Assembly (NCBI GenBank): GCA_009829735.1
Contig: CM020619.1
Coordinates: 9,476,375-9,540,374 of the forward strand
DNA from: Pyropia yezoensis
Lineage: Eukaryota > Rhodophyta > Bangiophyceae > Bangiales > Bangiaceae
Direction: 5' to 3'
Length of the DNA: 64,000 nucleotides
Numbering within the stretch: the first letter of the stretch is position 1; each line of letters starts with the position of its first letter. The position numbers and the translations under genes are program-made. Positions 23,699-61,416 of the stretch are shown piece after piece. The notes below the pieces were generated by a model. It was given only the letters and a program-made list of their open reading frames with translations. It did no database searches and had not been told where the DNA came from.

Positions 23699-23701
23699 CG
23701 C

Positions 23702-33381: not shown

Positions 33382-34840
33382 TCACCCACAAGTATTTGTT
33401 TTGTCAAAACATTTGGTACTGTTTTCGAAATTTGTGGACACGTATACCGAAACAAAGTACCACCCACCACGACGGCTTGAGAGTGAGCCAACAAAATGAA
33501 AACATACACTCAAAAACCAAAGAGACAACCGATGCATGACAAAGACCCAAAAACTCACAGGCGCATACGTGTGCAGAGTCGAGTGGCCGAAAGGCACGCA
33601 CCCACCTCTCGCCCTGGCGCGCCGCTCCCACTCAAACGACACAACCACATGGTCCTCCCCATACTAGGAAACCAGCTCCTCCCTAACGGCAAAATCCCTC
33701 AAGGCCGCTACGTTGCAACGCCAAGCAACCGACCCCGGCTTGGCCGCCTCCATCACGCCGCTGCTTATGCCGCCGACCACACCGCGCTTCCCCGTGGCCC
33801 GCGTCACATCAATGCCGAGGGAGCCAGCTGCCGTGCACGTGTGCACATGCTCCAGCATCATGTTGAAAGCTCCACGTAGCTGCGCATCACCAAGAGGAAT
33901 AATGTCATCGGCGGCATCATGTTGCCGTTGCTGCACCTCAAACCACCCCGGGGAGCGACCACGAAGCCCTGAACCGCGGCCAGTAAGGAGGTCCGATCCC
34001 TGTCCTTGCGGCGCCGCCGCGCCGGCCTGAGCATCCTCGGGGCGCCCAATCTGCACATAACCACCGGTCACCGGCGACCGTAGAAGATACGGAGATATCA
34101 TAACTTCGGAGGACCGAAAGCCTCGGGTGCACGCCAAAGCATCCCACCCAGTGATACGTCACAAACAAAGCCGCAAATGCGCGCAAACGCCCCACGAAGG
34201 AAAGACGCAAGGAGCTGCTCGTACGAAGGCTTTCCAGCCGATTCTAATGCTGCACGAGTAGACGAACTAACGTTCCACGCCCGACAAACGTTTTGCTCGA
34301 GCCCAGAGAAACACGACATTGCGAGATTCAGCTCAAACGGACGAAGGACTGCCACACTCGCAAAACCATCGCCGGGAGAGTCGCCAACGGTAAATCCAAA
34401 CCCCAACAGTTCCAAATGAAACAAACTCAAAAGAAGCGCTCGGCAGCATGCCAGAATCCCTCACCGGCCGGAACCGGTGAGGTCGAACCACCGCCCCCGC
34501 GACGGTTGGAAGCCCATCAAACAGGCTCGTCCGCCACATCGTGTTGACCGCCCAACACCAGAACAAGCTGCCAAACACGGTTGTGCACGCCAATCACACG
34601 CGAGGCGGCCACCACTTTGCCGTTGCCCATCTTGCTGTCCACCTCGTCATTCTCAGAGTGCTCAAACCCTGAAGGAGGCTGACACCGAAGCGAAGCGACC
34701 GCCATTGGGTGCCACTGGTCCCCAGCGCACAGACGGAAGGCTGCTGCTAAGGCTGCGACACCACACGTGCTTGATCAATTGGGGTCGAAAATGATGAAGA
34801 AACTTACGCAATTCCGCACTGTTGTAAATGCCGCGAGCAT
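33382..34840 (-). pseudogene. Short, internally deleted copy of the methyltransferase/SET unit
   Basis: The 5' exon at 34808-34840 reads MLAAFTTVRNC and runs into a splice donor GTAAGTTT; the long copy has MISAFTTVWNY and the same donor. Frames at 34517-34705 and 33664-34137 match the N-terminal half of the methyltransferase protein (VWQLVLVLGGQHD; TCTAAGSLGI). The sequence then jumps directly to the C-terminal part of SET (AALRDFAVREELV ... YGEDHV), so the methyltransferase core, linker and most of SET are missing. A TAG follows EELVS. Frame changes also occur between 34137 and 34517. It cannot encode a working enzyme. Confidence 0.75.
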
Positions 34841-35049: not shown

Positions 35050-35730
35050 GAAGGGCCGACCTGTTTTTTTCGAAACAGAACAGGTCAGGTGTCGGCAAAA
35101 TCATGAGGGCCCAACTGTTTTGTACTAAACAGACCAGGTCAGGTTTCGACAAAATCCTATGGCCCAACTGTATTGTACAAAACAGAACAGGTCAGGTGTC
35201 GGCAAAATCATGAGGGCCCAACTGTTTTGTACAAAACAAATCAGGTCAGGTGGCGACAAAATCTGATGGCCCAACTGTTTTGTACAAAACAGAACAGGTC
35301 CGGTGTCAAAAAAATCACGCGGGCCCACCTGTTTTGTAAAAAAAACAGATCCGGTCAGATACTGACAAAACATGAGAAGTTCTCATTCCGAGTGCAAAAC
35401 AAATCTCATCACAAATGGTTAGACCAGCTATTTTGCACAAAATAATTATCATCACATATGGACTTGTCATAACGTCACGCCCTATCTTGTTTAAAACAGA
35501 TCCCATGAGAAGTCCGCATGTCACAAGTAGTGCCACTGTTTTGTACGAAACAGATCTCATCTCATGTTGACAAGTCACATGGGGTCCGAATGTTTTGTAC
35601 AAAAAAAAAATCCCATCTGACTAGTTCATGAAGAGCCCACCTGTTTGCACAAAATTAAATGATCACGTGTGGACAAGTCACACGGGACAGTGTGTTTTTT
35701 ACAAAACAATCTCGATCTCATGTGGACAAG
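35050..35730. repeat. Array of ~13 units, ~54 bp, with a TTTTGTACAAAA core (short copy)
   Basis: Cores lie at about 35065, 35119, 35168, 35221, 35275, 35330, 35384, 35428, 35488, 35536, 35590, 35640 and 35693. The consensus core CTGTTTTGTACAAAACAG is a perfect 18-bp palindrome. Units on the gene-proximal side follow it with atCAGGTCAGGTGTCGaCAAAATC; distal units carry CATgTGGACAAGTCA instead. The array begins some 240 bp upstream of exon 1 of the short copy. Confidence 0.9.
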
Positions 35731-36084
35731 TCATTCACCATAAACGGACGCATTTTGGGAACAGCGGCCCATCTAACCAAACTTGAGACGACTCGGCTTT
35801 CAATTTTTGATTTGACAAAAGGTTCCATGACTGTGGAGTGTGAGTACAGTAGGCCAATGAAGGGAAGTGTGAACATGAAAAGTATGGCGAACTGCTCGAA
35901 TAATCCGACATCGACCACAAGTTCTTGTTTTGTCAAAAAACATTTCGTGCTACTTTCAAACATTGAGGACAAGAGTACGCGGACGCATGGCCACCACGAC
36001 GACATGGAAAGATTGATGGTGCGACAAGACAAAGAAAACACACACATGAAAACAAAAAACAGACACTCTTCGCATGAAAAAAAC

Positions 36085-37290
36085 TCACATACTCACAAGC
36101 GCAAACGTGTGCGGGGTCGAGTGGCTGAGATGCACGCCCCCAACGCTCTCCCTGCCACGCCGCTCCCACTCAGACGTCACATACACATAGTCCTTCCCAT
36201 AGTCGGCAACCAGCTCCTCCCCAACAGTGATATCCCTCAACGCCGAAACAGAGAGCAGGTCACTGCGGACAAAGTCCTGCGGTGACACGCGGGACCCCCG
36301 CTTCGCGTTGACCTAGATACGAACATTGGGAGAGGCGTGCCCGGTCCAACGCCTCTCCCCAGTGTCCGCGGGTGGGCCCGAGTCCCTACCGTGACCGCCG
36401 CCAGCTACGCTCCCTCCTGCGTCACCTCCCTCCTCTTCCTCTTCCCCAGGAGCTGGCGGTGTGGACGCCTGGGAGGCCGACGCCACCGCCGCCTCGACTT
36501 CAATGGCGGACGTCGGGCGACCGTCATTGATGTACTCCATCACACACAGCGGAGACGGGACGACAAACATGGACGAAAACGCCGAATCGCCAAAGACGGC
36601 CTCATGCGGGGGGGGCTCCACAGGTGGTGTACGCCCGCGTTCTGCCGCCCTCCGCTGCTGGCGCCCATCACCACGGCGTAGGACGTGAGGGGCAGGGCGT
36701 TGGCGGCGACTGCCGGCCCAGTCCTCAGAGTCCCCCCCCGAAAAGTCAGACTCGTCCAGCACGACCTGCATGGCGCGCTCGGAAAAGTCCCGGGCGGAGG
36801 GACCGAGGCTGCCCAACACGGAAGCCGCGTACCGCGCCGTCTTGACCCGCTTCTTGCCCAGCTCCGCATACACAACGGCCCCCCAAAAGGGACCAACATA
36901 GGCGCCCTGTTTGATGGGCCGAAGCGCAAAGACGCCACGCCCGGCCGTACCGCCACAGAGACCGCTGCAGGCGACACAGAGCCCCAGATGGGCCGCAGAG
37001 ACGTGAAGTCCCACGTCAACATCCTCCACGGCAAGCGCACACTGGAAAAGGTGTGGCCAATCCCCAACGCCAACCCCCTCAAGCTGCATGACTGCGGGGC
37101 CAACCTCACGGTCCAGTAGGGGTATCCCAGGAGTGCCGGGCAGGCGGCCCACACGAAGGGCGTCGGCGCGGGACGCCCAAACTGCCGCAAAGAAGCACAA
37201 AAGCTCAGACGGCAGGGACGAGTGGCACGGCAACCCCAGGGGGGTTTCCCAGTCTGGGGCCGTCGCCAAGGCGTATGGACGGTAGTTCCA
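36085..37290 (-). pseudogene. SET-domain methyltransferase, downstream part of the methyltransferase unit
   Basis: SET proteins transfer methyl groups from S-adenosylmethionine to lysine, often on histones. Seen: GRGVFALRPIKQGAYVGPF (first SET strand block), MEYINDGR (the pseudoknot Asn region), then, after an Ala/Glu/Gly-rich insert, PNVRI, and ALRDITVGEELVADYGKDYV at the C-terminal end, with the usual GEEL..DYG. A TAG at 36313-36315 interrupts the domain in phase between PNVRI and VNAKRG, so as it stands the gene is probably broken unless it is spliced out. No post-SET cysteines are visible. The frame is in phase with the methyltransferase upstream, separated by a stop and by an acidic segment in another frame. 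Confidence 0.75.
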
Positions 37291-37600
37291 TCATGACCTC
37301 TTCGGCCTCGTCCCCACCAGCGTCTCCAGCTTGGAGTTCACCGTCGGATGAGGAATCGTCCCCCAGCTGCTGCTGCGGCTGCACCTCCCCCTCGTTGTCG
37401 TCGTCGGGTGCTGCTGCTGGCAGCGCCTGCTGTCGCCTCTCGCGCAGGCGCCTGGACTCCTTCTTACGGGCTGCGGCCGCCGCTGCAGCTGCCTCCGTCT
37501 CAGCGTTGACGACACGGGCCGCCTTGACCAACTCGGTGGAGGCGACGCCAGAGGTGATGTAGCGCCAGTCAATAACTGGTTGACAAACTCCCGCCGCACA
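37205..37600 (-). CDS. Acidic, Ala/Arg-rich linker between methyltransferase and SET
   Basis: In a frame shifted from both neighbours runs DWRYITSGVASTELVKAARVV, an Ala/Lys/Arg helix (EAAAAAAAARKKESRRLRER), then an acidic Gln/Asp/Glu stretch (GDDSSSDGELQAGDAGGDEAEEV). The composition looks like real protein rather than a shadow. It would join the methyltransferase after REFVNQL and SET near its start if two frame changes, or two introns, lie here. No domain is recognised. Confidence 0.45.
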   Translation of the reverse strand, partial: CAAGVCQPVIDWRYITSGVASTELVKAARVVNAETEAAAAAAAARKKESRRLRERRQQALPAAAPDDDNEGEVQPQQQLGDDSSSDGELQAGDAGGDEAEEVMMELPSIRLGDGPRLGNPPGVAVPLVPAV

Positions 37601-40114
37601 CGCGGAAGAGAGGCTTGAATCACGACGGGGTCCGAGTCGCAGCTGACTACCAGCCGATGCTGACCCAGCACGGCCCGAATGCAGGCAGCGGCCGTCACGC
37701 AGGTGCCGGCAAAGGCGTCCACGACAATATCCCCTGGCTGCGAGAAGCGCAAGACAAGCTCGAGGATGAGGGCCAGCGACTTCTGTTCGGGCCGCAACCA
37801 CGGCCGAGACCCGTCGCGACGACGACGGACGACCTCGTTGTAGTGCGGCGGACGAACGTGATCAATGAAGTTGTCGTGAGCCGGGTACTGCGATGGCACA
37901 ATGTTCCACGTGCGATAGTTGACTTGAACAAACGCTTTTTCCGCAGAGGCACCGCGGCGAGTGGCGTGCACGATAAAATCCGCCTTGTTGGACAGGTTCG
38001 TTGACTGCGACCGCATTGTGTTGACCGCATGAGGTTCCTTGATGGCGACGAGGGGGTGGCTATCGACGCTAAACGCAGGTAGGGTCGCCAGCAGCCCAGA
38101 GGGATTGACGTCCACCAATGCCTTCAGCGTCTCCATCCACGGATTCAGCTGCTGGGTCAAACAAAACAGAAGCAGATGACCGCCGGGTCGAATGAGCGTC
38201 CGATAAAGGACGACCGCAGACCGCATGTCCGCCTCCGTGAGGACGTCATGCGAGGACTCGTCCAACCTGAGCGCCGACCGGGTACCATACGGCGGGTCAC
38301 AAAGAACCAGCTGCACTTGAGAACCCAGAAATTGCGGCAGCACGTCGAACGCGGCGGCCCCGGAACTGCTGCTGACGGCGCGGCTGCTAGACGCACACCC
38401 AAAGGGCGTTTGGGAGCGTGCGTCGGCCCACGCATCCGCATGCGCGCGAACGAGGTGGTCAAAGCCACAGACGTAGTTTGCCGCCACTTGGGATAACGCC
38501 TCGTTCACTACCTGCCACGCCTCGCGCAGCTGCACCGGGTTGGGGGCGTCGATCACGTCGTCCGGCGCGTCCGCCCCAGTACGACCGGTCCACAGCAACA
38601 GACCACGACGCCCACCGATGCCCGGAGCTGCTAAACTGCACAACTGTTGTACGTACAAGCCGGCGACGCTACAGTCTGCACGATACGCCAGCTGCAGGGA
38701 CGACAGGTCAGCAGGAGAGGGGGGGGACTGCCACCTCTGTATGACAGCCTTCGAGGCCGCCCAGAACGGGGGCGAGTCCCGTGGCAGAGATACGACCTTG
38801 AACGCCGTCAGGCCGCGCGCCACCATTTGCAGCGTAGGGGGCACCAAGTTGGAACAACGATCCCACGTGGGCGGCCGGTACATGTCCACCGACAACCGCC
38901 CCAAAGTCTTGCGCTTCTTGGCCGCCTGACGAGAGGTAAACTCGGGGACTCCAGCTACGCTGCTACCAACAGCAGCCGACCGTGGCTGGACCCCCTCCAT
39001 CAGGCGGCTGCCCACGCCGCCGCCAACCCCGCGCTTCGCCATGCTTCGCGTCACGGCAATGCCGAGTGAGCCAGCAGCCGTGCACGTGTACACGTGCTCA
39101 AGCATCATACTGGCGGCAGCACGAAGCTGTGCATCGCCAAGAGAAAGGATGTCTTGGACGGCATCGTCTTGCAGCTGCTGCACCTCTGACCACGCCAGGG
39201 GGCGACCACGCAGGCTGGGACCTCGGCCAGTGAGGAGGTCCGTCCCCTGTCCGTGCGGCGCCACCACGCCAGACTCAGCATCCTCCGGTCGCCCCATCGC
39301 CACAACACCCCCAGTCGCCGGCGACCAAAGAAGGTAAGACGATAGCATGACTTTGGCGGACCGAAAGCCACGGGTGCGCGCCAATGCATCCCACCCGCTG
39401 ATGACATCGCGAACGATAGCGCAGATGCGCGCAAACGACCCTCGAAGCGAAGACGCAAGGCGATCCTCGTACGAGGGCTCTTCTCCAGCCAATTGTGCTG
39501 CTACACGAGAAGAAGAAGAAACCATCGAGGCCCGGCGAACGTCCTGCTCCAGACCAGAGAAGCACGACATCGAAAGAATCAGCTCAAACGGACGAAAGAC
39601 GGCGACGCTCACACCGTCATCGCTGGGAGCTTCCCCAACGGAAGAGCCGAGCCCCAATAACTCCGAACGAAACAACGTCAAAGAAAGCGCCGTGGCAGCT
39701 CGCCAGCTTCCCTCCCCGGGCGAAACCGGTGAGGTAGGGCCACCGCCCCCGCGACGGCTGGAGGCCCATCGAACAAGCAGATCGGCCCCGTCGTGTTGAC
39801 CGCCCAACACCAGCACAAGCTGCCAAACACGGATGTCCACGTCCTCCGCAGGTGAAACGGCCACCACGTCGACGTTGCCCATCTGGCTAACCACCTCGTC
39901 ATCTGCAGAGTCCTCCAGCCCTGAAGGAGGCAGGGACCGAAACAAAGCACCCGCCATTGCGTGCCACTGGTCCCCTGAGCACAGACGGAAAACTGCAGCG
40001 AGCGCATCGACGCCGTCAGGGACGGCAACAAACCTCTTGAGCACCTTCACCGCATGGTAGATCCGCGACACAACAGCGTCGGCCATCCATGACGTTCTGG
40101 ACGTCAGCCGTACA
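37577..40114 (-). CDS. DNA methyltransferase (DPPY type) with a large unknown N-terminal region
   Basis: About 850 codons open from a good splice acceptor (CTCTTTTCCAG, minus strand, 40115-40125). The C-terminal third shows motif IV DPPYG (about 38290), motif V-like GGHLLLFC, a TRD-like basic stretch, then DAFAGTCVTAAACI (motif I region, about 37690-37720) and VVSCDSDP. The order IV before I is that of beta-class N6-adenine or N4-cytosine DNA methyltransferases. In motif I the third Gly is a Cys (FAGTC instead of FAGSG), so activity is open. The N-terminal 500 residues are unrecognised but conserved in the short copy. MT-A70 enzymes have DPPW, so they are less likely. Base target cannot be told from sequence. 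Confidence 0.8.
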
Positions 40115-40236
40115 CTGGAAAAGAGAGCGGGAAGAAAAACAGGTGCCCAGGGAGACAAGGGATGACTAAAGCTGGTGCACCACGCAGACAGGTCTGACCA
40201 ACGGCATGAGAGCAGCGTAAAGCGACTACGGCCACC

Positions 40237-40536
40237 TCAATGAAAAACTATGAACAGATCGCGCAGGAGAGCCAAGGCAGACACGACATCCCCACACGGG
40301 TACAGGGACGCAGGCACTACCGCCTGGCACACAGCGACAGCGACCGCGGCATCTTGGGACGCGGCCGTTACACGATCCGCAATGGCAGACGCAGACAAGG
40401 TGGCCATGGCACGGGTCACGAGAGAGAACCGCGCACGCCGTGCAAGAGACAAGGACGAGACACTCGAGAAGCGCAGCGTCCCTCGAGAAGCGCAGCACAC
40501 GGGATGATGGCGACAAACGCAACATGACACCACCTG
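40237..40536 (-). CDS. Candidate second exon of the methyltransferase unit
   Basis: Open in the phase expected after exon 1, starting after a CAG acceptor (ACATTCAG, ends at about 40536). It encodes CCVCRHHPVCC and then an Ala/Val-rich stretch (AASQDAAVAVAVCQAVV). A donor joining it in phase to the exon at 40114 was not identified, so this is tentative. Confidence 0.35.
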   Translation of the reverse strand, partial: QVVSCCVCRHHPVCCASRGTLRFSSVSSLSLARRARFSLVTRAMATLSASAIADRVTAASQDAAVAVAVCQAVVPASLYPCGDVVSALALLRDLFIVFH

Positions 40537-40619
40537 AATGTCAGCACATAGCGGCACCACAATGTATTTTCACCAGAACGTACCTGATCCAATAATTTTG
40601 GAATTTTTTTAAAACTTAC

Positions 40620-40652
40620 GTAATTCCACACGGTGGTAAATGCCGATATCAT
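40620..40652 (-). CDS. First exon of the methyltransferase unit
   Basis: Eleven codons, MISAFTTVWNY, ending at a splice donor GTAAGTTTT (40612-40619). The short copy at 34808-34840 has MLAAFTTVRNC with the same donor in the same phase. The sequence around it diverges more than the exon itself, which supports coding. Confidence 0.6.
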
Positions 40653-40774
40653 AGACGACAGATATACTAATTAGGCACAAACACCATCCCGAAAACTGCT
40701 GATCTAGTCACGACAAGCAGACGCCTATGGAACTAAAATCCGCCATGGAATCAAAAGCGTCATAGATTCTCCAG

Positions 40775-41776
40775 ACATGTTTTGTGCAAAATGGATCCTG
40801 TTGGGTATCGACGAATGTATCAGTGCCCGCCGTTTTTGTACAAATCAGACCACAAATTGGGTCGACAAAATCGCAAGAGCACCTTACTATTTTGTACAAA
40901 ACAGATCACGTCAGGTGTCGGCACAGCCATCTACGCCTGCCAGTTTTGTACAAAACAGATGAGGTCAGGTGTCGAGAAAGTCATGACAGGCCACCTGTTT
41001 TGTACAAAACGGATCAAATCAGGTGTCGATAAAGTCATGCCAAGCCACCTGTTTTGTCCAAAATAACAAATCAGGTCAGATGCCGACGAAGTCGTGACAG
41101 GCCACCTGTTTTGTACAAAACATATCAGGTCAGGTGTCGGATGATAATAGTGTTAAGGGCCCACATGTTTTGTATAAAACACATCAGGTCAGGTGGTGAC
41201 AAAGTCTGTAGGGCTCACGTGTTTTGTACAAAAAGAATCTCGTCAGATACACACAAAATCATGAAGAGCACCGGTATTTTGTACAAAACAGTTGTCATCA
41301 CATAATGACAAGTCATAAAGACACAAGATGTTTTGTACAAAACAGATCTCATCACATATTGACAAGTCAGACAGTCGCCCACTATTTTGTACAAAACAGT
41401 TTTCGTCTGATATTGACAAGTCACATTGGGTGCCACTGTTTTGTACAAAAAATATTCCATCTGATGGGGAACTTTCCATGTAGGGCTCGCCTGTTGGTAC
41501 TAAAATAAATTTGATCACATGTGGTCGAATCATACAAGACCGTCTGTTTTGCACAAAACAAACTGGATTTCATGTGGACAAGTCATACACCTACCGTCTG
41601 TTTTGTACAAAAATGAAACCATCGGATCTCGATCGAGTCATGCAGTGTCCAACCATTTTGTAAAAAACAGACCTGATGATCTATGGTCATGTCACCTGGG
41701 GACCGTCTGTTTTGTACAAAACAGATACGTTGCGATTTTCTCTAGTCTTGTCGTGGACGTCTGTTTTGTACAAAAA
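40775..41776. repeat. Array of ~19 units, ~54 bp, with a TTTTGTACAAAA core (long copy)
   Basis: Cores lie at about 40777, 40826, 40888, 40941, 40998, 41050, 41108, 41165, 41220, 41275, 41330, 41384, 41438, 41490, 41543, 41599, 41655, 41708 and 41761. The best units contain the perfect palindrome CTGTTTTGTACAAAACAG followed by ATCAGGTCAGGTGTCG. As in the short copy, gene-proximal units carry the CAGGTCAGGTGTCG arm and distal units the TGGACAAGTCA arm. It begins about 120 bp upstream of exon 1. Element E interrupts its distal end, and remnants continue at 51519-51680. Confidence 0.92.
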
Positions 41777-41816
41777 TGGTCCAAGTCGTGCGGGGCTGGT
41801 CTGCATTGTAGAAATC
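41776..41816. repeat. 41-bp direct repeat, left copy, abutting element E
   Basis: Exact match to 51478-51518. It ends at the first base before the left LTR, and an array unit lies just before it. Confidence 0.9.
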
Positions 41817-42389
41817 TGTGGTATAAAACTCGATCCTCTCAGACACGTGTCAATATCCCTCGGGGGAAAGGGACAGGTAACGCAGAAAGGGGAACTACGA
41901 GAATGGTATGCCTGTTGCCTCACGTGCCTGCTTGCAGGGCAAACAGATACGCACGGTAGTGCACACGGGGAAGAGGAAAGCAAACGCGCAGTTGTCTTTT
42001 TCCCTGAGGGCGCGGGCCGAGGGCGCCTCGCTGTCCCTCTTAACGTGCATCTGGGGGAACCCCGGCACGTTGGCCCGGTAGCCCCCCCCATAACCCCGAG
42101 TGGCCCCGACCCGAGTCTAACCTCGTCAGGTCGGGGGCCACTATCACTACTAATTCTATTCCCACTCACTAATCTCACACTCAAATTCTCTCAAATCAAG
42201 TCCCTCACAAATATGCAAAAACACATCAGAAATCCCTCTCTCGCGTGTGGATAGCGTAGTCCACCGCATCCCAGTGCCGGGCACGGGCCACGGCCGCCAA
42301 CCATCGCCACACGGCGGGCGTGTTCTGGCACCTGGTGCCCTCTGGTTGCAGTCCCGGGTCGGCGCCAAGTCGGGGCCAGGGATGCTACA
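41817..42389 (-). repeat. 3' LTR of element E (573 bp)
   Basis: Starts TGTGGTATAAAAC and ends GATGCTACA; same length and, as far as checked by eye, same sequence as 50904-51476. The longest opposite-strand frame begins inside it. Confidence 0.93.
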
Positions 42390-42404
42390 TAGCTCCCTCC
42401 CTAG
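42390..42404 (-). promoter_or_regulatory. Polypurine tract of element E
   Basis: On the minus strand AGGGAGGGAGCTA lies immediately upstream of the 3' LTR, the position where plus-strand DNA priming starts in LTR elements. Confidence 0.65.
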
Positions 42405-42573
42405 TCCGGCACGTCCTCGGGCCGAACCAGGTGCCACCGTGCACAGCCTCGAGCACGTCCACACCGGTGCCGAGGTCGAGCGTCTTCACCCGGTCACGAT
42501 CACCTGCCCCGATTCTGCCCCCCCCCCCCCCCTCCTTCACCTTGGCCCTCTCGTTCCCCGGAGTCTGGACGGT

Positions 42574-44700
42574 ATGTCCAGTTCCGAGATCCAAGCTGGG
42601 CCCGTGGTTCCGGCGGCGAGTGTTGCGGAGGAGAACTCGGGTCGTCGTGCCCCTCTCCTGCCTCCGGTTCCTCGGATGTCGGTGCCGGCGCCGGTCGCCA
42701 CGGCGGGGACGGATCGAGTTCCCCCGGCTTCCGCGATGCACCCGGTCGAGGCCCCCCCGGAGGGTCTCCCGGAGATGCTTCTTGGGCAGGACCCTCTGGC
42801 GGCCCGGCGTTACTCCACGGTGGTCGGCAACGCCGGCGCGGCCCAGTGCCAGCAGGATTGCATGGACCTCTGGCGCAAGGAACTCCAGCGCGGGGTCTTG
42901 ACCGAGATGGACAAGGCACGTCTTCATACGGCGGACCAGATGCGCCTGGCACAAGACCGCTCCCAGAGCTTCTCGGGTTCCTCTTGGGTTGCTCGTCTGG
43001 AGGATCTCCCCTTCGCACTGGTACTGGATCTACCCTTGACCGAGCGTCGCGTGTCCGCGTCCGTTCTCCGGTGGCCGGAGGAGGAAGGGTACGTCTACCG
43101 GGCGCTCAAGGTCTGGGACGAGGCGCTCAAGGGGTCGGGAAGCTTGAACTGCGACCCCCGTCCAAGCATGGTTGCTCTGGAGCCGCCTTTCTTGACCCGG
43201 AAATACTCCAAGTTGTCGCCGGCACGGGAGCAGGGTGAGCGACGCGGGCGTCAGCGTGACTTCCTTGTGAGCTGCAACCACCAGGAGTTCTGGAAGCTGG
43301 ACAAGGCTAACCGGGCGGCATACTACCCCAAGGTCATCCCGCAGCAGCAGGAAGTCGAGATCCCGGTCGGGTTTGCTCCTTCCAGCATCCCTTGCACCTG
43401 GTACTTCTTGGACGCCTTGACTCAGGCGTCGATCAAGGGCTTCTTCCACTCAATCCCGTACATGATGTACACGTCCGAGATGACAGTCTTGGCGGCCAAC
43501 CACTGGCTTCATGAGGTCTTGGTGTCCAACCGGCTTTGGTTTCTCCCTGACCTCCTGATGGTCTGGATTGTCGACAAGTTGACCGTCGACTTCCTGTGCA
43601 GCCAGGACGAGGAGTACAAGGAGCTCTTCCAGGCGATGATCGACTTCCGGCGTCTGGTGCCGGTGCATGACCGGAACTTCTTGAACGCGATTGCCGACCA
43701 GAACCGCCCGCGTCGGGATGGCTTCGGTTGGGCGCAGGTGGTCTACCAGTCTTCTCCGGCCAAGGTGCAGCTGGCGACGCCGCTTCCGGCGTGGCCGCAG
43801 CTAGGTAGCTTTCCTGCTCCGGCCGCCCTTGATCTTCTGCCAGTTGGGCCGCCGGTGCAGGAGTCGGGATGGGCCGCGGCGGTCGGTCGGGCGTCTGCGG
43901 CGGCTCCGCTTCCTCTGGTTGCCCCTGTCGCCCCGGTCGCCTCGGTCGCCTCGCCTGAACCGTCACCGGCGCGTCCGCGCCCTGTTCCTGCTGTGCCGGT
44001 ACTTCAAGCTCCTCCGGCACCGCGCTTGTCTGCGGCGAGTCTGGGAGTGGCCGTGCGGTCGCCGATTACTCCGGTCGCTCTACCCCGGACGCCTTCTTCC
44101 AACGCCGGCGGCGCTGTGCCTCCGCTGGAGTTGGGTACTCCGGTCTCGGGGGCCGTTGTGGACCGTCCGGTAGTGTCATCCTCGGGCCGGTTCGAGATTC
44201 CGGCGCCGACTCTGCGCCTTACCCGCTTCCGGGTGCCTGACTGGTACCTGAACCAAGGTGGTCCAACATGCGACCAGTACGACGTCGGCATGATTGAAGA
44301 CCAGCTGGGTCGTCTTCCGGTGCAGGTTGAAGGCGTCGGGTCCTCTCTGGTGCTGGGTACTTACGCCAGCGTCTTGAACGACGTGGTCGACCGGGTGTTT
44401 GCTTGCGCGGACAGCGGCCAGATGTCGAACAACCCGGTGGTTGGCGAACTTCTGGCGACTTTGACGCGGCATGGCTTGGCCCAGCAGTGGTCAGAGACCT
44501 TCACGGGCTTCCAGCGGCGCCGACGGACATATCTGGATGAGCGGGAGCCACCGGCAACTACTGGTACTACTCCGATGGCGTCATACCGGGATGCGCCGCG
44601 TCCACCGCACTACGTCATCCCGTCTTCCTCCGGTTCCCGTCGTACCGCGGAGGCAACGCCGGAGGACACTCCCTCGGCTCAGCGTCCGCGCCGAGAGTAG
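42574..44700 (+). CDS. Opposite-strand ORF of element E
   Basis: About 709 codons from the ATG at 42574 (MSSSEIQAGP); the frame stays open upstream to an ATG at 42247 inside the LTR, but that part is low-complexity. A folded-looking middle (FFHSIPYMMYTSEMTVLAANH; FLPDLLMVWIVDKLTVDFL; DFRRLVPVHDRNFLNAIA) is followed by a Pro/Ala/Val linker and a C-terminal helical region (ASVLNDVVDRVFACAD; ETFTGFQRRRR). The same order, with weak matches around L..VHD..N and the C-terminal helices, is seen in the opposite-strand ORFs of A and D. No known family is recognised. The 145 bp to the pol stop is the convergent spacer. Confidence 0.7.
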   Translation: MSSSEIQAGPVVPAASVAEENSGRRAPLLPPVPRMSVPAPVATAGTDRVPPASAMHPVEAPPEGLPEMLLGQDPLAARRYSTVVGNAGAAQCQQDCMDLWRKELQRGVLTEMDKARLHTADQMRLAQDRSQSFSGSSWVARLEDLPFALVLDLPLTERRVSASVLRWPEEEGYVYRALKVWDEALKGSGSLNCDPRPSMVALEPPFLTRKYSKLSPAREQGERRGRQRDFLVSCNHQEFWKLDKANRAAYYPKVIPQQQEVEIPVGFAPSSIPCTWYFLDALTQASIKGFFHSIPYMMYTSEMTVLAANHWLHEVLVSNRLWFLPDLLMVWIVDKLTVDFLCSQDEEYKELFQAMIDFRRLVPVHDRNFLNAIADQNRPRRDGFGWAQVVYQSSPAKVQLATPLPAWPQLGSFPAPAALDLLPVGPPVQESGWAAAVGRASAAAPLPLVAPVAPVASVASPEPSPARPRPVPAVPVLQAPPAPRLSAASLGVAVRSPITPVALPRTPSSNAGGAVPPLELGTPVSGAVVDRPVVSSSGRFEIPAPTLRLTRFRVPDWYLNQGGPTCDQYDVGMIEDQLGRLPVQVEGVGSSLVLGTYASVLNDVVDRVFACADSGQMSNNPVVGELLATLTRHGLAQQWSETFTGFQRRRRTYLDEREPPATTGTTPMASYRDAPRPPHYVIPSSSGSRRTAEATPEDTPSAQRPRRE

Positions 44701-44845
44701 TAGTTGGAGGCAAGGAGGGTGAGGGTCTTGGGAGAAGCGAGGAGGGAAGAGGCGGAGAGAAGGGTTGCTCGAGCGGGTGCTTGGTTTCCTTGATTGTTCC
44801 ATGCTTGCATTGCGTGTTCTCCTTGATATACCCGTTCCCTTCTTC

Positions 44846-47800
44846 TCAATCCTCTTGTTCCGCATCCGTTGCGGGTGAGCTCGTCTCGTCCCGAGGGTCT
44901 TGGTTGGCCCCGTCCTCTTGGTCCTCCTCCGTGTCCGACTCCAGAATTTTGCCGGCTCTGGCCACGGGAGTGCCCCCAATCCCGTTCCGTCGCGTGTAGG
45001 CACAGACGTCCGCGATGGGTAGCCGGTTTGAGGGTTCCCATGTATCATCTGCCGGGTTGAAACCGAACCAGCGTACTCGCAGGTACAGGCGTCCGTCTCT
45101 CCAGGCATGGTCGACAAACTTGACGTAGACAAATTCCCGACCTTCTTCTTGGGATAGCCAGGGTATCGCAGTCCGCTTACGCCGGGTCAAGTCCCGTTGG
45201 CTTGGCGGTGGAGCTCGGGTGACATGGTCGCTGCTCACCCGGTACGGAGAGCCATCCACGTCTAGAAGGAAGGTCCAGCCATCCGTATTGAGAATCTCAT
45301 AAGGTCCATCCGTCTTAGAGTCCAGCTTCCCTCGGGTCTTGCTATGGTTGTCCACAAAAACCCAGTCGCCACCACCCAGTTCCTTGTTCTTTTCCCGGAC
45401 ACCCTTGTCATAGTCCCGCTTGTATCGCTCCTGGGTCTTTGAAATTGACTCCTTGACTCTTGGGAGCAGGAGCTTTAGTTGTTCCAGGAACTCATCCTTT
45501 GCCTTGGGACCTGACTTCAGTGCAGGCTGGAGACCATCCGGTATTCTTTCCAGGGAGAAGTTGGTCAGCCGCCTCGGGGTGACAAAGTCGAGTGGAGCGA
45601 CTCCCGTTGTCCGGTGAACTCGGGAGTTGTAGGCTAGAGTGAGGACAGCCAGGAGCTCGTCCCAGTCTTCTTGGTGCTCCTCCACGTAGTGCCGTAGCAT
45701 GTCCACTAGGGTCCGGTTGAATCGTTCCACCTGGCCGTTCGTTTGAGGGTGGTACGTCGTGGTGTACAAGTTCTTGATGCCCATCAGGTCACAGACTCCT
45801 TGGAAGAACAGGGATGCAAACTGGGGACCGTTGTCGGTTAAGACGGAGTCTGGAGGGCCGTAGGCAGCTATCCAGTACTCGCAGAAGGCCGACGTGACAT
45901 CCAGAGCCGTGATGGTTCTCAACGGGATTGCTCGAGTGAACTTGGAGAACCGGTCACAAATGATGAGTAGGTATACGTTGCCACTGGAGGTCTCAGGTAG
46001 GGGCCCCAGGATGTCCATGCTTAAGCTTGCAAAGGGCTCCGCCGCAGGGAATAGGCGTAGCTTAGAAGTCTTCTTCCTCTGGGACAACCGGTTCCTTGCA
46101 CAAGAAATACAAGCCTCCAGGCACTTATGGACGTCACTGGCCATGGTTTCCCAGTAATAGTGTCGTCTCATGGAAGCATACATCCGATTGATACCAGGAT
46201 GTCCGGCCTGGGGAGACGAGTGCTTCAGGCGTAGGATGTCAGTCCGTAGGCTCCGGGGTACGTAGACTTGAGTTGCCCCATCGAAGGGTGACACCCGTAC
46301 TAGGAGTCCGTCTGTAGACTCGGAGAAGCGACTGTTCCGGTTCAGGTCCATTTGGTGGCGAAGCTCCAAGCATTGAGGGTCCGTCAATTGTGCCTCCAGC
46401 ATCCGGTGAATGGTTACCGGTTGATGAGCTTCAGGTGTCTCGTACAGGGGAGCGTGCCAGCCACGTCCGACATTCGGGAGGATAAAGCAAGGTATTTCCT
46501 CCGGGATAGGACCGGTATCGGCTGCAGGAGTCTCCAGCCTGGACATGGTGTCGGCGCAGTGGTGCTCCCTCCCTGCTCTGGTGCACACCTTGTACTTGAA
46601 CTCCGAAAGGCGTAGGCGCCACCGGGCGACCCTTCCTTGACTGCTGTCCATGCATAGCAGCCACCTTAGACTGGCGTGGTCCGCCCGGATGAGGAACTCT
46701 TGTCCTTCAAGATATGGACGTAACAGGAAGCAAGCCCAGACGACCGCCAAGCACTCGCGCTCGGTCGTGGAATAGTTCTTCTCGGCTGGAGTCAAGACGC
46801 GACTGTAGTAGCCTATCGGGAGGAAGTGCCCATCAGGTTGCTGCTGGAGTAGTGAGCACCCCACCTGGACGCCACAGGCGTCAGTCTCCAGAACAAACTG
46901 ACCCTCCCGCTTGGGTAACGCCAGTACTGGAGTGGTGGTCAGGCGCTTCTTGAGCTCTTCGAAGGCTGCTGTCTGCTTCTCGTCGAACACCGGGAGTTGT
47001 GCTGGAAGCTTCTTGCTAGTAAGCTTGGTCAAGGGCCGGGCAATCAGAGCGTAGTCTCGTACGAACCGGCGGTAGACGTTGCACATACCCAGGAAGCTCT
47101 TGAGTTCCGTCTGGGTTTTAGGTTGCCGTGCATGCCGGAGGGCCTTGATGTTCTTCTCATTGACTCGGAGCTCCCCCGGACTGAGCACGTGCCCCAGGTA
47201 CTCCACCTCAGTCTCAAACAGGTGGCACTTCTCGGCCTTGAGGGTAACTCCAGCCTTGGACAGGAGGGCCAGGACCTCTCGAAGGTGCTCCAGGTGTTCC
47301 GCTGGGGTCTTGGAGAAAACAATGATGTCGTCCAGGTAGACCAAACATGTTCTCCACCTTAGCCCCGACAGGATGATGTCGATGGCTCTCTGGAAGGTTG
47401 CCGGAGCATTAGTGAGACCAAAAGGGAGACGCTTGCACCGGAACAGTCCCATGTGGCACGTGAAGGTAGTCTTGTCCTTGTCCTCGTCAGCCAGAGGGAT
47501 CTGCCAGTAACCGGCATTACAATCCAGCGTCGAGAAGAGGGTGGCATCACCAAGAAAGTCGAGGCAATCATCCATCCGGGGTATCGGGTATACATCCTTG
47601 ACTGTCATCTCGTTCAGGCGTCTGTAGTCGACGCAGAAACGGAAGTGACCGCCAGGTTTCGGGACGACTACCACCGGGAAAGCCCACTCGCCATCAGACG
47701 GCTCGATAACATCCATCTTGAGCATCTTGTTAACCTGCTTCTCAATCTCATCCCGGCGATGAGGTCCAGCCCGGTATGGGTGCATGTGCACTGGTTTGGC

Positions 47801-48805
47801 ATCTGGCTTGAGTTGAATCCGGTGTAGGGTGGCGTCCATCTTGCCCAGCTCTCCAGACCACAGGTGCCGATATTCGTGGAGAAGCTTCTCCAGTGCCTCC
47901 TTCAAGTCGGGAGGGACGTTTTCTTGGTTGACCTTCGGCATCCCGGGCGGTGCTTGTTCGGGCTTCGGAGTAGTACGGCCAGCCTGCTCTTGTTCCGGAG
48001 ATACGTCTAAGGCCGTCAAGTTGGATGCCAGCTCTTGTTGCAGGTTGAAGAGGTCTTCCTTGCTCATAGCGCGGGCGGTCCCCCGGTAAGGCTCTGCTGT
48101 ACCAACTCGAGTGCCCTTGGCGAGGGTTATTGGCTTCCGGCTCACGTTGACGATCAGCACCGAGAACGGGGTGTGCCTCTCCACCTTCTTGTGGTGTCCG
48201 TGGGCTAGGTATAATCGGTGTTTCGCCAGAAATTCCTTGCGTCCGTAGATCAGGCATTGACCTGCAGTCCGGGTCGTGACTTGAACCTTGGTCTCCGAGC
48301 GAGGAGGTAGGAGCACCGGTTTGATGAGGGTCAAGGTAGAGGGTGGGATGCGTTCCTTCTGGTTCTTGGCCACACGAACCTTGGTGTCCAGGTGCTCCAG
48401 CACTGGTGACACAAACCCATGGTTGAACTGCACCTTTCCTTCTCCGGGTAGGATGCTCTTGACATGCTGCTTCTGGAAGTCCCAGCCTAGGATGAGGGGG
48501 ACTGATAAGGTCTTGACTACTAGAAAGGGAAAAAGCATTGGTTCATTGTTGACATAGATGGCGACGGGAAGACGGCCAAGCGGTCGTAGGGTTTGACCTG
48601 ATGCGTCTACAATCCGGGTCTTGGTAGGCGCTCTCCAGGCATGTCGACGCCAGCCCGGAGGTAACAGGTTCTCAGTGATGACGCTTGGTCCGGCTCCCGT
48701 GTCGACCACCGGCGTAACAGCTTGGGGGAGGCTATCCCCCACACGCATACGAGCATTAATCTTGAGGTTTTCCTTACGCAGGACGAGCAAGGTCCCCTTG
48801 AACAA
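44846..48805 (-). CDS. pol: pol polyprotein of element E
   Basis: 1319 codons, one frame. Protease VDTGAGPSVIT near residue 34; RT with YLDDIIVFS; RNase H with ETDACGVQVG and TERECLAVVW; integrase zinc module (HSSPQAGHP ... CISCARNR); integrase core MDILGPLP, TDNGPQFA and HPQTNGQVERFNR; and a C-terminal chromodomain-like segment (FVYVKFVDHAW ... LRVRWFGFNPADDTWEP) followed by an acidic tail. All key residues are present. It starts about 130 bp after the gag stop. Confidence 0.95.
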   Translation of the reverse strand: MFKGTLLVLRKENLKINARMRVGDSLPQAVTPVVDTGAGPSVITENLLPPGWRRHAWRAPTKTRIVDASGQTLRPLGRLPVAIYVNNEPMLFPFLVVKTLSVPLILGWDFQKQHVKSILPGEGKVQFNHGFVSPVLEHLDTKVRVAKNQKERIPPSTLTLIKPVLLPPRSETKVQVTTRTAGQCLIYGRKEFLAKHRLYLAHGHHKKVERHTPFSVLIVNVSRKPITLAKGTRVGTAEPYRGTARAMSKEDLFNLQQELASNLTALDVSPEQEQAGRTTPKPEQAPPGMPKVNQENVPPDLKEALEKLLHEYRHLWSGELGKMDATLHRIQLKPDAKPVHMHPYRAGPHRRDEIEKQVNKMLKMDVIEPSDGEWAFPVVVVPKPGGHFRFCVDYRRLNEMTVKDVYPIPRMDDCLDFLGDATLFSTLDCNAGYWQIPLADEDKDKTTFTCHMGLFRCKRLPFGLTNAPATFQRAIDIILSGLRWRTCLVYLDDIIVFSKTPAEHLEHLREVLALLSKAGVTLKAEKCHLFETEVEYLGHVLSPGELRVNEKNIKALRHARQPKTQTELKSFLGMCNVYRRFVRDYALIARPLTKLTSKKLPAQLPVFDEKQTAAFEELKKRLTTTPVLALPKREGQFVLETDACGVQVGCSLLQQQPDGHFLPIGYYSRVLTPAEKNYSTTERECLAVVWACFLLRPYLEGQEFLIRADHASLRWLLCMDSSQGRVARWRLRLSEFKYKVCTRAGREHHCADTMSRLETPAADTGPIPEEIPCFILPNVGRGWHAPLYETPEAHQPVTIHRMLEAQLTDPQCLELRHQMDLNRNSRFSESTDGLLVRVSPFDGATQVYVPRSLRTDILRLKHSSPQAGHPGINRMYASMRRHYYWETMASDVHKCLEACISCARNRLSQRKKTSKLRLFPAAEPFASLSMDILGPLPETSSGNVYLLIICDRFSKFTRAIPLRTITALDVTSAFCEYWIAAYGPPDSVLTDNGPQFASLFFQGVCDLMGIKNLYTTTYHPQTNGQVERFNRTLVDMLRHYVEEHQEDWDELLAVLTLAYNSRVHRTTGVAPLDFVTPRRLTNFSLERIPDGLQPALKSGPKAKDEFLEQLKLLLPRVKESISKTQERYKRDYDKGVREKNKELGGGDWVFVDNHSKTRGKLDSKTDGPYEILNTDGWTFLLDVDGSPYRVSSDHVTRAPPPSQRDLTRRKRTAIPWLSQEEGREFVYVKFVDHAWRDGRLYLRVRWFGFNPADDTWEPSNRLPIADVCAYTRRNGIGGTPVARAGKILESDTEEDQEDGANQDPRDETSSPATDAEQED

Positions 48806-48933
48806 ACAGGGTGTCCAGGCGGCTACCGGTTGAGCAGGTAACTGCCGTCCTTTCTCCCGGCACGCAAGGGGAGAACAGGTAGAAGTACCCTGCCGTTGGA
48901 GATTCGGGAAGACACTTGGGGAGAGCGCCTGCC

Positions 48934-50694
48934 CTACTCGTTTCCCGGCTCCGAGGAGTCCTTAGAGGTTTCGGTCTCCAGGTCAAAGTCCGTAGGAGCT
49001 TCCCTTGCCAGAGCCTCCGTGATGCTCTGTAAGGTTGCCACTCGGATGGCATGTACCTGTGCCTTGTCCATCTTGGAGGGTGCCCGCCGGTCAGCCCAGT
49101 TGACCGCCTTTGCAAACACCAGTCCTTGACGCTTGAGTTTCTCCTGGAGATCCTCGGGAATGGTCGGGCACTGGTAGGACATATGATCCTCCTTCTGGCA
49201 CAGCCAGCAAGACCGGAACCGCTGGTTCCTGATCTGCTTGGGGGCGACCAGGGAAGGTTGCTCCTTAGAAACGAAGCCGCCCCACTTGTCCCTTGACTCC
49301 ATGGGTGAGGCCTCGCCAACTGCGAGTACCGGTACAGGGTTATCACCTCCCTTATACTTGTCGGGTCCGGGACGGACTCGCGACAACGGCTTGGGGGTTG
49401 ATACCATAGGAGCCTGGAGGGCCTTGGCTTGCCGGTGCTTGCCCTGGGTATAGGCCATCAACTGCTGGAAGGTATGTTCTTGATGTTCCTGGTTGTAGTT
49501 CTCCGCATCCACTTGAAGATATTCAGGAAGCCCCTCCGAGAAGATCATCTTGAGCCTGTCCTCAGGGTAAACGTTGCCACAAGCATCGCTCATCTCCCGG
49601 ACACGACGGGCGAACGCCTCTGGAGTCTCTTGTCTCTCCATGGTTGCCCGGTTCAGCCTACCGACTGCCTTACGCAGGGAGTCCGCGTCTGCGTAGTTGG
49701 ACAGGAGCCAGTTGACCGCCTCCGGATAACTCGCGACGGTACGTCCAACAATGTGCCCGGCAGAGTCTGGTAGAACCTGTGCAAACCGCTGTTCCGCTTC
49801 TCCGGTCATGAAGTTAACCAGGAGATAGAGAGCCTTGCCCTCGGACACATCGTTGTCATTGCATGCCTTGACAAACCGGCGCAGGAAGGCAAAGATAAGC
49901 GCCGGTCTCTTCCCGGAAAACTTAGGATGCCCCCCAAAGCTCGGCTGCATTCGCCGGTTCAGGGATGCCATCTTCTTGGCCATCTTCCGGGTGTAACCTT
50001 GGTCTTGGTTCTCCAGCCGGTAGTTACCCCAATACGTGACCTTGTTCAGGGTGGCATCTCCCACTTGGTGGGCAGGGAAGTCGAACTCGACTAGCCTGCG
50101 CCGGGTAGGACCGGGAGATGCATCCCAGTCATATCCCTCCTCAGAGCTGGAGGAACTGGTCTCGCTGGTGCTAGAGCGGCGGCGACGACGCCGACGCCTA
50201 CGGCTGCTCCGGTCACCGGTCTTGGAGCTCCCCGCCCCATAGGACGCAAGGGGAGGAAAAGCTTGGCCGGTCCCAGGAGTCGAAGTCTCAGGAAGACCCG
50301 TAGAACCAGTCATAGCGGTGCCTCTGGCACTGCCAGTGCCCACAGGAAGAGGTGTATACACCCAGCTGCCATGTGTGGGTCCAGGAGTAAACACACCAGG
50401 GGCTATCCCTGGAGGTTGAGGAGTAGAACCGACAGGAGGGAGACGTCTGCTGCGAGCGGACTCAAACGCCGTTGACCCCGGGGTGGCTCCCACAGGAGGA
50501 ACAGCCGGAGGAACGGGAGCAGGCGGTACTTGGCCGCCTGTAGACTCCAGTCCACTACCGGATGCCACGCCCAGGTCTGCTTCACCCGTAGGGAGAACGC
50601 CGGGTTGGGCACCGTCCCCCGCGGTGACCAGGGATGCGTCAAGGGACGCGGGGTCTACCCCTTCGGGCACCGTCGTGCCAGGGAGGGTAGCCAT
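48934..50694 (-). CDS. gag: gag polyprotein of element E
   Basis: 586 codons. Thr/Gly/Pro-rich N-terminus, an Arg/Ser tract (SSRRRRRRRRRSS), a capsid-like core (GHPKFSGKRPALIFAFLRRF; RQETPEAFARRVREMSDACG) shared with B, a CX2CX4HX4C zinc knuckle (CWLCQKEDHMSYQC), and an acidic end. The ATG lies about 190 bp after the primer site. Confidence 0.93.
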   Translation of the reverse strand: MATLPGTTVPEGVDPASLDASLVTAGDGAQPGVLPTGEADLGVASGSGLESTGGQVPPAPVPPAVPPVGATPGSTAFESARSRRLPPVGSTPQPPGIAPGVFTPGPTHGSWVYTPLPVGTGSARGTAMTGSTGLPETSTPGTGQAFPPLASYGAGSSKTGDRSSRRRRRRRRRSSTSETSSSSSEEGYDWDASPGPTRRRLVEFDFPAHQVGDATLNKVTYWGNYRLENQDQGYTRKMAKKMASLNRRMQPSFGGHPKFSGKRPALIFAFLRRFVKACNDNDVSEGKALYLLVNFMTGEAEQRFAQVLPDSAGHIVGRTVASYPEAVNWLLSNYADADSLRKAVGRLNRATMERQETPEAFARRVREMSDACGNVYPEDRLKMIFSEGLPEYLQVDAENYNQEHQEHTFQQLMAYTQGKHRQAKALQAPMVSTPKPLSRVRPGPDKYKGGDNPVPVLAVGEASPMESRDKWGGFVSKEQPSLVAPKQIRNQRFRSCWLCQKEDHMSYQCPTIPEDLQEKLKRQGLVFAKAVNWADRRAPSKMDKAQVHAIRVATLQSITEALAREAPTDFDLETETSKDSSEPGNE

Positions 50695-50882
50695 GTTGGT
50701 CTCTTGACAGCCACAGTCCAGTTACCTGCGTGTCCAAAGATCGCAAGACCACAAGAGAGGGGTTGGAGAGCCAGGAATGGGGTTCCCGTGAACGGGTGCA
50801 AATAATTCCCAAACCACAGAAAAAGACAGAATAGGAACAACGCAACCGCTGCTCCCAAATGTCTCTTCTCAAACACTCCAAT

Positions 50883-50899
50883 CCCCTGCTGCTCCACCA
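50883..50899 (-). promoter_or_regulatory. tRNA primer-binding site of element E
   Basis: Same 17 nt as in A, B, C and G, four bases inside the LTR edge. The 190-bp leader to gag holds nothing else recognised. Confidence 0.87.
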
Positions 50900-50903
50900 A
50901 ATA

Positions 50904-51476
50904 TGTGGTATAAAACTCGATCCTCTCAGACACGTGTCAATATCCCTCGGGGGAAAGGGACAGGTAACGCAGAAAGGGGAACTACGAGAATGGTATGCCT
51001 GTTGCCTCACGTGCCTGCTTGCAGGGCAAACAGATACGCACGGTAGTGCACACGGGGAAGAGGAAAGCAAACGCGCAGTTGTCTTTTTCCCTGAGGGCGC
51101 GGGCCGAGGGCGCCTCGCTGTCCCTCTTAACGTGCATCTGGGGGAACCCCGGCACGTTGGCCCGGTAGCCCCCCCCATAACCCCGAGTGGCCCCGACCCG
51201 AGTCTAACCTCGTCAGGTCGGGGGCCACTATCACTACTAATTCTATTCCCACTCACTAATCTCACACTCAAATTCTCTCAAATCAAGTCCCTCACAAATA
51301 TGCAAAAACACATCAGAAATCCCTCTCTCGCGTGTGGATAGCGTAGTCCACCGCATCCCAGTGCCGGGCACGGGCCACGGCCGCCAACCATCGCCACACG
51401 GCGGGCGTGTTCTGGCACCTGGTGCCCTCTGGTTGCAGTCCCGGGTCGGCGCCAAGTCGGGGCCAGGGATGCTACA
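50904..51476 (-). repeat. 5' LTR of element E (573 bp)
   Basis: Matches 41817-42389 in length and sequence. The outer edge is one base from the right 41-bp repeat. Confidence 0.93.
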
Positions 51477-51477
51477 T

Positions 51478-51518
51478 ATGGTCCAAGTCGTGCGGGGCTG
51501 GTCTGCATTGTAGAAATC
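51478..51518. repeat. 41-bp direct repeat, right copy, beside element E
   Basis: Exact match to 41776-41816, separated from the LTR end by a single T. The flanking sequence beyond differs on the two sides. Confidence 0.9.
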
Positions 51519-51964
51519 AATCTTATAAGTGTGGACGACTCGTTCCATGCCACAAAACATGTCCAACACACGCCTTACAAATCGTTCTGCGATGCTCGTC
51601 TGCTTTGTAGAAGAAATTATCATCAAGTGTGGACATGTCGTCATAAGCCACTCTGTTCTACACAAAACCAACACACAGCTGTTTTATCTTCTTCCCAAGA
51701 ACTTTGAATTGTGTTCTACGCCTCTGTAAATTGACATCCTCAGACTGTTCAGAGATGGAACAAAAGACAGTTACTCAAGAACGATTGCGGCGTTTACAAC
51801 ACTAGCAAGCAAAGCACTCAACTCTTCAAACTCTCACACGCAAGCAATGACCAATGCAGGGGAGTCACCAAGAAAAAAAGCAAAAGCACAAACAACAAAC
51901 AAGCAGGCATCGCAAAGACAAAACGTGCAAACCTCACAAAGAACAATCGCGCGCAAGGCAAACG
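51519..51964. other. Array remnant and A/C-rich 3' flank of the oxygenase gene
   Basis: Two worn array units (cores near 51599 and 51651, with GTGGACATGTCGTCAT-like arms) continue the array interrupted by E. From about 51840 the plus strand turns A- and C-rich, probably the 3' untranslated region of the minus-strand gene that ends at 51965. No gene. Confidence 0.6.
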
Positions 51965-53925: not shown

Positions 53926-53927
53926 AG

Positions 53928-54280
53928 TGTAGCACAATAAGGAACCGGGTTAGTCCTGTCTCAGGGAACACTCACCAGGGGGGATCGACACACAAGTCAC
54001 CGGGAGGCCAAGGTTGCTGTCCTTGGAGCGCAGCCCACGGGACCATGATGGGAGCCCAAATGGGAGGGGTTTGTTGTCTCCCTAGCGTCGTCGGCGTTGT
54101 CGCCGCCGACCACACGATAATAACCCACGGAGACGCCACTAATTCCCCTCCCCTCCAATGCAGAAGTCCCTCGGCTATAAGTACCCTCCCGATACCATAG
54201 CCCCTATGAACCCGCTTGGCGGTGGGAGTGGTGGAAGAAACCCTCCGAGGATCTGTAACATAGGTAACCATATTACTACA
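53928..54280 (-). repeat. 3' LTR of element D (353 bp)
   Basis: Bounded by TGTAGCAC and TTACTACA. It is similar over most of its length to the LTR of A at 7969-8331. The left edge lies 2 bp upstream of the ATG of the oxygenase-like gene, in the same orientation. Confidence 0.87.
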
Positions 54281-61285: not shown

Positions 61286-61416
61286 CACCATCGCCCCTAT
61301 GAACCCGCTTGGCGGTTGGAAGAGGTGGAAGTAGCCCTCCGAGGATCTGTAACATAGGTAACCATATTACTACACCCTCACAACCGTGGGTTACCCTTCA
61401 CGGTGTGAGCGTCAAT

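Follow-up and report, generated by a model that had tools for sequence, protein, structure and literature searches.

A 64,000-nucleotide stretch of the genome of the red alga Pyropia yezoensis (nori; GenBank assembly GCA_009829735.1, contig CM020619.1, positions 9,476,375 to 9,540,374), hereafter the window, contains a decayed, retroelement-split remnant related to a family of giant transposon-like elements of the nori genome. The remnant carries a gene in which a DNA amino-methyltransferase (MTase) is joined to a SET domain (MTase-SET), an array of 12-bp palindromes 5′ of that gene and, farther 5′, half of a ParB-like gene. A preliminary description had taken some 6 kb of this DNA, comprising MTase, SET and palindromes, for a mobile unit. 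We find that a dispersed mobile-type element carries the MTase-SET family but that the 6-kb unit is not what moves: rather than being a mobile element itself, this unit, broken and tandemly duplicated, is left over from a divergent relative of the giant element. The earlier observation is partly confirmed and its interpretation partly supported. Membership of a family of giant mobile-type elements is highly probable, and we put at roughly 0.55 the probability of the whole reading, in which a giant transposon-like element carries its own DNA- and histone-type methylation writer together with element-specific palindromic control sites.

The window holds two copies of the gene, one long and one short (Table 1). 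In the long copy, the minus-strand frame 37291-40236 comprises an N-terminal region and an MTase domain with DPPY and FAGT motifs, and matches the Pfam family N6_N4_Mtase above its cut-off (E 1e-10). The SET frame, 36313-37290 and reaching on to 36088, gives a weak match to Pfam SET when taken alone (E 0.19, below cut-off). An uninterrupted relative of 1487 amino acids (P0002), used as a tblastn query, covers the entire long copy at 57%. MTase and SET lie in one protein in five of six relatives scanned with Pfam; the SET match is above the curated cut-off in P0003, P0014 and locus L039:988-5493, below it in P0002, P0007 and P0010, and was not seen in P0009, the sixth relative. These matches indicate that the two domains form a single protein in the relatives, of which the long copy reads as a broken version: it has an in-frame stop near the N-terminus, MTase/SET frame changes and a stop within SET. 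Both copies begin with an 11-codon exon (MISAFTTVWNY in the long copy, MLAAFTTVRNC in the short) followed by a GTAAGT donor, and the exon of the long copy is predicted from the sequence to splice in frame to the N-terminus through an AG at 40534. Three elements of the preliminary description, namely the MTase frame, the SET frame and the first exon with its conserved donor, are borne out, as is the joining of a DNA-type with a histone-type methyltransferase, here within one gene.

In the family alignment (A1), motif IV (DPPY) precedes motif I (FAGT). This is the motif order of the beta-class, or permuted, DNA amino-methyltransferases. The MTase domain of a predicted P0014 structure finds CcrM, RsrI and MboII as fold matches. 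By motif order, the enzyme appears to be of the beta-class type; the DPPY motif and the nearest known structures make N6-adenine the probable site of methylation.

The nori genome, of which 48.0% is predicted to be repeats (PMC7423979, accessible text), contains 37 places with an MTase-SET match, 36 of them outside the window. The two places compared most extensively, copy A (C2:12145278-12182173) and copy B (C3:25780242-25742367), are colinear over ~37 kb, and their main segments are 91-98% identical. Each has a ParB-like gene and a DNA amino-methyltransferase joined to SET in one protein; the order in copy A is a long ParB-like gene, three GTTATGTACATAAC palindromes and then MTase-SET. Similarity in copy A stops where an apparent long terminal repeat (LTR) element interrupts a reading frame. 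Beyond that point copy B, the copy read further, continues with a 1572-amino-acid frame containing a superfamily 1 helicase (AAA_11, E 9e-22), five palindromes and another frame. A RING finger frame also lies inside the giant element (L038:354-1199, plus strand; zf-RING_2, E 4e-8). The left edge is common to the base in 18 of 51 rows, and an inverted pair of the left-end segment, with equal scores, stands 9.5 kb apart (C3:15910174, plus; C3:15919720, minus), which hints at terminal inverted repeats. Dispersal over three large contigs, colinearity and the shared left edge favor mobility. The mobile-type unit is far larger than the preliminary description supposed, including a ParB-like gene, whose remnant in the window had been missed, and, in copy B, a helicase.

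Ten recent copies differ by a synonymous divergence of 0.014-0.074, with a median ratio of nonsynonymous to synonymous divergence (dN/dS) of 0.64 over 45 pairs, as expected for copies of a recently spread element. Sequence comparison points to selection on both enzyme domains, with the recent copies constrained weakly.

We examined the genomic association of MTase-SET with the ParB-like gene using all 79 ParB-like rows and leaving out 24 of 61 MTase rows, which are further fragments of the same genes or the window's short copy. A ParB-like match lies on the same strand within 30 kb 5′ of 30 of the 37 MTase-SET places, whereas random placement paired a mean of 0.55 places. The match is within 10 kb in 26 of the 37, and in 15 the gap is 3.4-4.05 kb. 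The ParB-like part occurs in >20 close copies (87-100%), and the pair is kept even where identity in the ParB-like core falls to 31-37%, in lineages several of which are situated close to contig ends. The arrangement of ParB-like gene, palindromes and MTase-SET in that order, or at least of ParB-like gene before MTase-SET, persists in divergent lineages that include the window's. The window remnant aligns with the giant-element ParB-like protein (Table 1), and its own matches fall in 23 of the 50 genome loci taken (some overlap), 15 of these at the 5′ edge of MTase-SET loci. The ParB-like and MTase domains belong to separate genes with palindromes between them, not to one protein. The ParB assignment is weak: the ParB-like part of copy A matches the PHROG ParB partition family at E 0.0024. 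A C-terminal cupin or 2-oxoglutarate oxygenase domain, suggested by eye, was rejected, as no such family matched and only a short Zn-ribbon hit below cut-off was obtained.

The palindromes form the third component of this arrangement. The long array has 19 consecutive units at 40780-41764, 12 of them with exact palindromes, in which the palindrome columns are 96% identical and the spacers 57%; in the short array, the corresponding values are 93% and 62%. Since array units were chosen by palindrome likeness, these palindrome identities are biased upwards, although the long array keeps all 19 consecutive positions and the short array only its 10 recognisable sites. The comparison nevertheless suggests that the 12-bp palindrome has been under constraint while the spacers decayed. 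Genome-wide, TTTTGTACAAAA has 43 exact sites, against one for the reversed control, and the array noted in the preliminary description is confirmed. Fifteen of these sites are in the window, and 22 of the other 28 have an MTase or ParB-like place no more than 45 kb away (23 of 28 when left-edge matches are added). The related GTTATGTACATAAC has 255 exact sites and its reversed control none. Among the first 50 listed, all on contig C1, 42 are at most 45 kb from an MTase or ParB-like place, and the stretches so defined make up 3.1% of C1; the remaining eight are near left-edge matches, a proximity test that is partly circular because the left-edge query itself contains one palindrome. The GTTATGTACATAAC palindrome marks a subfamily of the giant element.

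Among 29 further MTase loci examined, 15 have three palindromes at constant spacing, two have two, one has a single site elsewhere and 11 have none; by estimate, seven of these 11 start so deep within the gene that its 5′ side is not covered. TTTTGTACAAAA takes the place of GTTATGTACATAAC in the window and at C1:11.51 Mb, with periods of 54 and 75 bp, respectively. TGTACA-centred palindromes thus stand directly 5′ of the MTase frame in three MTase-SET lineages, ~42-65% identical by region: palindromes of one kind recur at one position, with the ParB-like gene on one side and MTase-SET on the other. In the third lineage (C1:11503547-11506281; L003, L004 and L031), a truncated MTase frame is adjoined by ACATTTTGTACAAAATGT repeated every 75 bp, and a ParB-like C-terminus lies upstream. 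The 75-bp unit at C1:11.506 Mb equals 25 codons, so a coding repeat and a promoter fused to the truncated gene are indistinguishable there; because the gene is truncated, that array could also be coding. The expectation of the preliminary description that palindromes and MTase go together holds for the family in these three lineages, whereas the window's array DNA itself occurs at two places in the genome, both in the window.

This restriction bears on a purely local account, in which a defunct host gene and its satellite-like array were tandemly duplicated once and hit by retroelements, with no mobile element and no joint function. The array DNA at two neighbouring places only, the direct tandem arrangement of the copies and the stops and frame changes of the long copy all suit it; the 36 other MTase-SET places, the ParB-like pairing and the palindromes kept against decayed spacers do not. 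As an explanation of the whole it is improbable: it holds for the final step in the history of the window and is largely refuted for the family. In the same sense, the pair of copies in the window is an ordinary segmental duplication, an outcome that the preliminary description had named as telling against its proposal, whereas separate occurrence of array and genes, the other such outcome, does not hold for the family at large. The short copy (35739-33386 including its array) is a direct-orientation neighbour of the long copy. It lacks 36246-38953 and ~40000-40611 of the long copy, and with them the catalytic MTase and most of SET, and retains the N-terminal MTase part and ~50 C-terminal SET residues. 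The preliminary description took it for an internally deleted relative, as expected of a multiplying element; it has two deletions, and its position is that of an adjacent tandem duplicate, as local duplication gives.

What the palindromes do is a matter of prediction. We consider it likely that they are control sites of the element. Alternatively, they might serve transposition or replication, by binding a transposase, a helicase or an origin protein in the manner of subterminal repeats, and not gene control. Clusters of GTTATGTACATAAC also occur near other element frames and near the left edge of the element, and copy B encodes a helicase, as this alternative would have it; yet MTase-SET has the most constant cluster ~40-270 bp on its 5′ side, and another precedes the other frame in copy B. 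We regard a transposition or replication role as possible but distinctly the less probable of the two.

Giant repeats could also arise as segmental duplications, for example by subtelomeric exchange, with ParB-like and MTase-SET as host genes travelling along. Several divergent copies with both genes do cluster near contig ends (C1:43.53-43.58 Mb, C3:29.30-29.38 Mb and C2:2-25 kb), as if some lineages were subtelomeric. Similarity passes the left edge at 13 places besides copy A, and this edge therefore does not serve as an end for all copies. The element stretch read, which stops short of the right end, showed neither a target-site duplication nor a transposase. Set against these points are the interior copies on three large contigs, the left edge recurring at one base and the inverted left-end pair, and we judge duplication of host segments unlikely. 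Two transposase types present in the genome, EnSpm (Transposase_21, 48 genome hits) and KDZ, were not seen in the part of the element read, the nearest lying 54 kb (EnSpm) and 115 kb (KDZ) from any MTase or ParB-like place.

A viral origin was likewise weighed. Large algal viruses often have genes for methyltransferase, helicase, SET and RING proteins, and the elements might be integrated pieces of such a virus. An MTase-SET profile matched at least 16 loci in viral contigs, but all matches listed fall within query residues 705-1008, confined to the MTase and adjoining part with none over SET, and no capsid or packaging family was found in the element frames scanned with Pfam. From the frames scanned, we regard a viral origin as very improbable.

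Besides the overrun left edge and the lack of an end, a target duplication and a nearby EnSpm or KDZ transposase, several observations weigh against a giant mobile element with its own writer and control sites. Full comparison covers copies A (C2:12.17 Mb, with the uninterrupted MTase-SET frame) and B (C3:25.75 Mb) only. A ParB-like match upstream is missing at seven of the 37 MTase-SET places, including the window, where only the C-terminal half is present, and C1:11.50 Mb, where a C-terminal part is present. The ParB-like protein has no Pfam match up to E 10 save an insignificant one to GmrSD, no match in protein databases or in a PDB sequence search, and an unreliable structure prediction (predicted local distance difference test, pLDDT, of 33, from four near-identical alignment rows). 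In the P0014 model, SET is predicted with low confidence, and the MTase domain takes up the fold list. The median dN/dS given above signifies weak constraint in the recent copies. Four of the 11 palindrome-free loci (L015, L018, L020 and L029) should, by estimate, reach the 5′ side of the gene, and five TTTTGTACAAAA sites at C3:12656098-12734717 (79 kb) lie more than 1.9 Mb from any MTase, ParB-like or left-edge match. Binding at the palindromes and methylation of these sites are conjectural.

Table 1. Features of the MTase-SET locus in the 64-kb window (window coordinates).
Feature	Position	Strand	Evidence or detail
Long MTase-SET copy (broken)	36088..40422	-	Pfam N6_N4_Mtase; tblastn with P0002
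11-codon first exon and putative intron, long copy	40534..40652	-	GTAAGT...AG; exon 40652-40620, intron 40619-40534
Long-copy palindrome array	40780..41775	.	19 units of ~54 bp centred on TTTTGTACAAAA, 5′ of MTase-SET
Short gene copy	33386..34741	-	N-terminal MTase part 34741-33784; SET C-terminus 33711-33556
11-codon first exon, short copy	34808..34840	-	GTAAGT donor
Short-copy palindrome array	35118..35706	.	10 recognisable sites, 3 exact
LTR retrotransposon	41817..51477	.	580-bp end match 99.8%; RVT_1, RNaseH, integrase
Apparent degenerate array continuation	51478..51670	.	Read by eye from sequence
ParB-like gene remnant, C-terminal half only	52281..53949	-	tblastn 40%, 382 amino acids, E 4e-57

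On the minus strand, read 5′ to 3′, the locus runs from the C-terminal half of the ParB-like gene through an apparent remnant of the array edge, the LTR retrotransposon, the palindrome array, the 11-codon exon and MTase-SET to the short array and copy. The retrotransposon has two near-identical LTRs and a pol frame (44849-48961, minus strand) with reverse transcriptase, RNaseH and integrase, and with a chromodomain at its C-terminus that matches weakly, below cut-off (E 5e-4); frame 48937-50721 precedes pol in the gag position and matched no Pfam family. This recent insertion fell in the upstream edge of the array and separated the array from the ParB-like gene. The array has its edge at 41816 because the retroelement inserted there, and this position, given as the end of the unit in the preliminary description, is an insertion point instead. 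LTR integration usually duplicates 4-6 bp of target. A far longer direct duplication, of 41 bp (41776-41816 and 51478-51518), flanks this element. Elsewhere in the window, two adjacent long frames at 21017-26101 (minus strand) resemble a RecQ-type helicase by eye (GGGKS, LLTATAP, QASGRLSRD) and have no Pfam match up to E 5, and inverted 1.36-kb repeats, 99.6% identical (59930-61287 and 62642-64000), overlap a retroelement pol frame.

Proteins combining ParB and N6/N4-MTase domains have already been reported from algal transposons. Sola1-1_Ec32 of Ectocarpus is a 21.5-kb DNA transposon whose 1104-amino-acid accessory protein has ParB-like and N4C/N6A MTase domains; the accessible text of the report proposes that such accessory proteins bind and modify their own element, and mentions green and red algal relatives (PMC12477816). 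The nori element is likewise a giant algal element with a ParB-like and an amino-MTase part together. It differs in that these are separate neighbours with palindromes between them and that the MTase is fused to SET; no Sola transposase is shown in the nori element, no search having been aimed at Sola. Giant EnSpm elements of red algae, as that text cites them (Petroll et al. 2025, Bostrychia), share giant size and multiple accessory genes, but no EnSpm transposase lies within 54 kb of a nori MTase or ParB-like place; the Bostrychia work may describe relatives of the nori element. By analogy, the nearest enzyme idea would be N4CMT of bdelloid rotifers, described in the accessible text as a host gene fusing a DNA writer to a histone-reading chromodomain (PMC8885841), whereas in nori the partner is a histone-writing type of domain and the gene is element-borne. 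Element-encoded DNA methyltransferases are also reported for dinoflagellates and charophytes; those are C5-cytosine enzymes in retrotransposons, with no SET or ParB mentioned in the accessible text (PMC5890265). SETMAR of primates joins SET to an inactive transposase, also a transposon-derived part, with no DNA methyltransferase mentioned in the text seen (PMC8704517). No MTase-SET fusion in a transposon appears in the accessible text of PMC12477816, PMC7423979, PMC12695648 or PMC8885841, and the SET fusion, the two-gene split with palindromes between and the palindromes themselves were not found in the literature searched, which was mostly open-access. The novelty of the SET fusion and the palindromes is provisional.

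On our reading, the element would move, or would once have moved, as DNA. Its palindromes would be control sites bound by an element-coded protein, for which the ParB-like protein is the best candidate. They would bring about MTase-SET expression and aim the enzyme at the element's own DNA and at nearby chromatin proteins, which it would methylate, and the element might thereby regulate or shield itself. Such self-directed marking by MTase-SET is putative, and we hold it at somewhat less than even odds. More doubtful still is the full picture of a self-addressing epigenetic parasite, in which the ParB-like protein would recognise TGTACA palindromes and bring to them one polypeptide that writes both DNA adenine and histone-type marks.

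The palindrome provides a simple sequence tag with which to find and classify such giant elements in nori and perhaps in its relatives. The family makes a test case for mobile elements bringing an epigenetic code of their own into a host. If the full picture were true, a partition protein of prokaryotic style would, with its sites, position a eukaryotic module for writing DNA and histone marks. If the DNA and chromatin of the element are marked together by MTase-SET, one protein would couple the two kinds of mark, with sequence as its guide.
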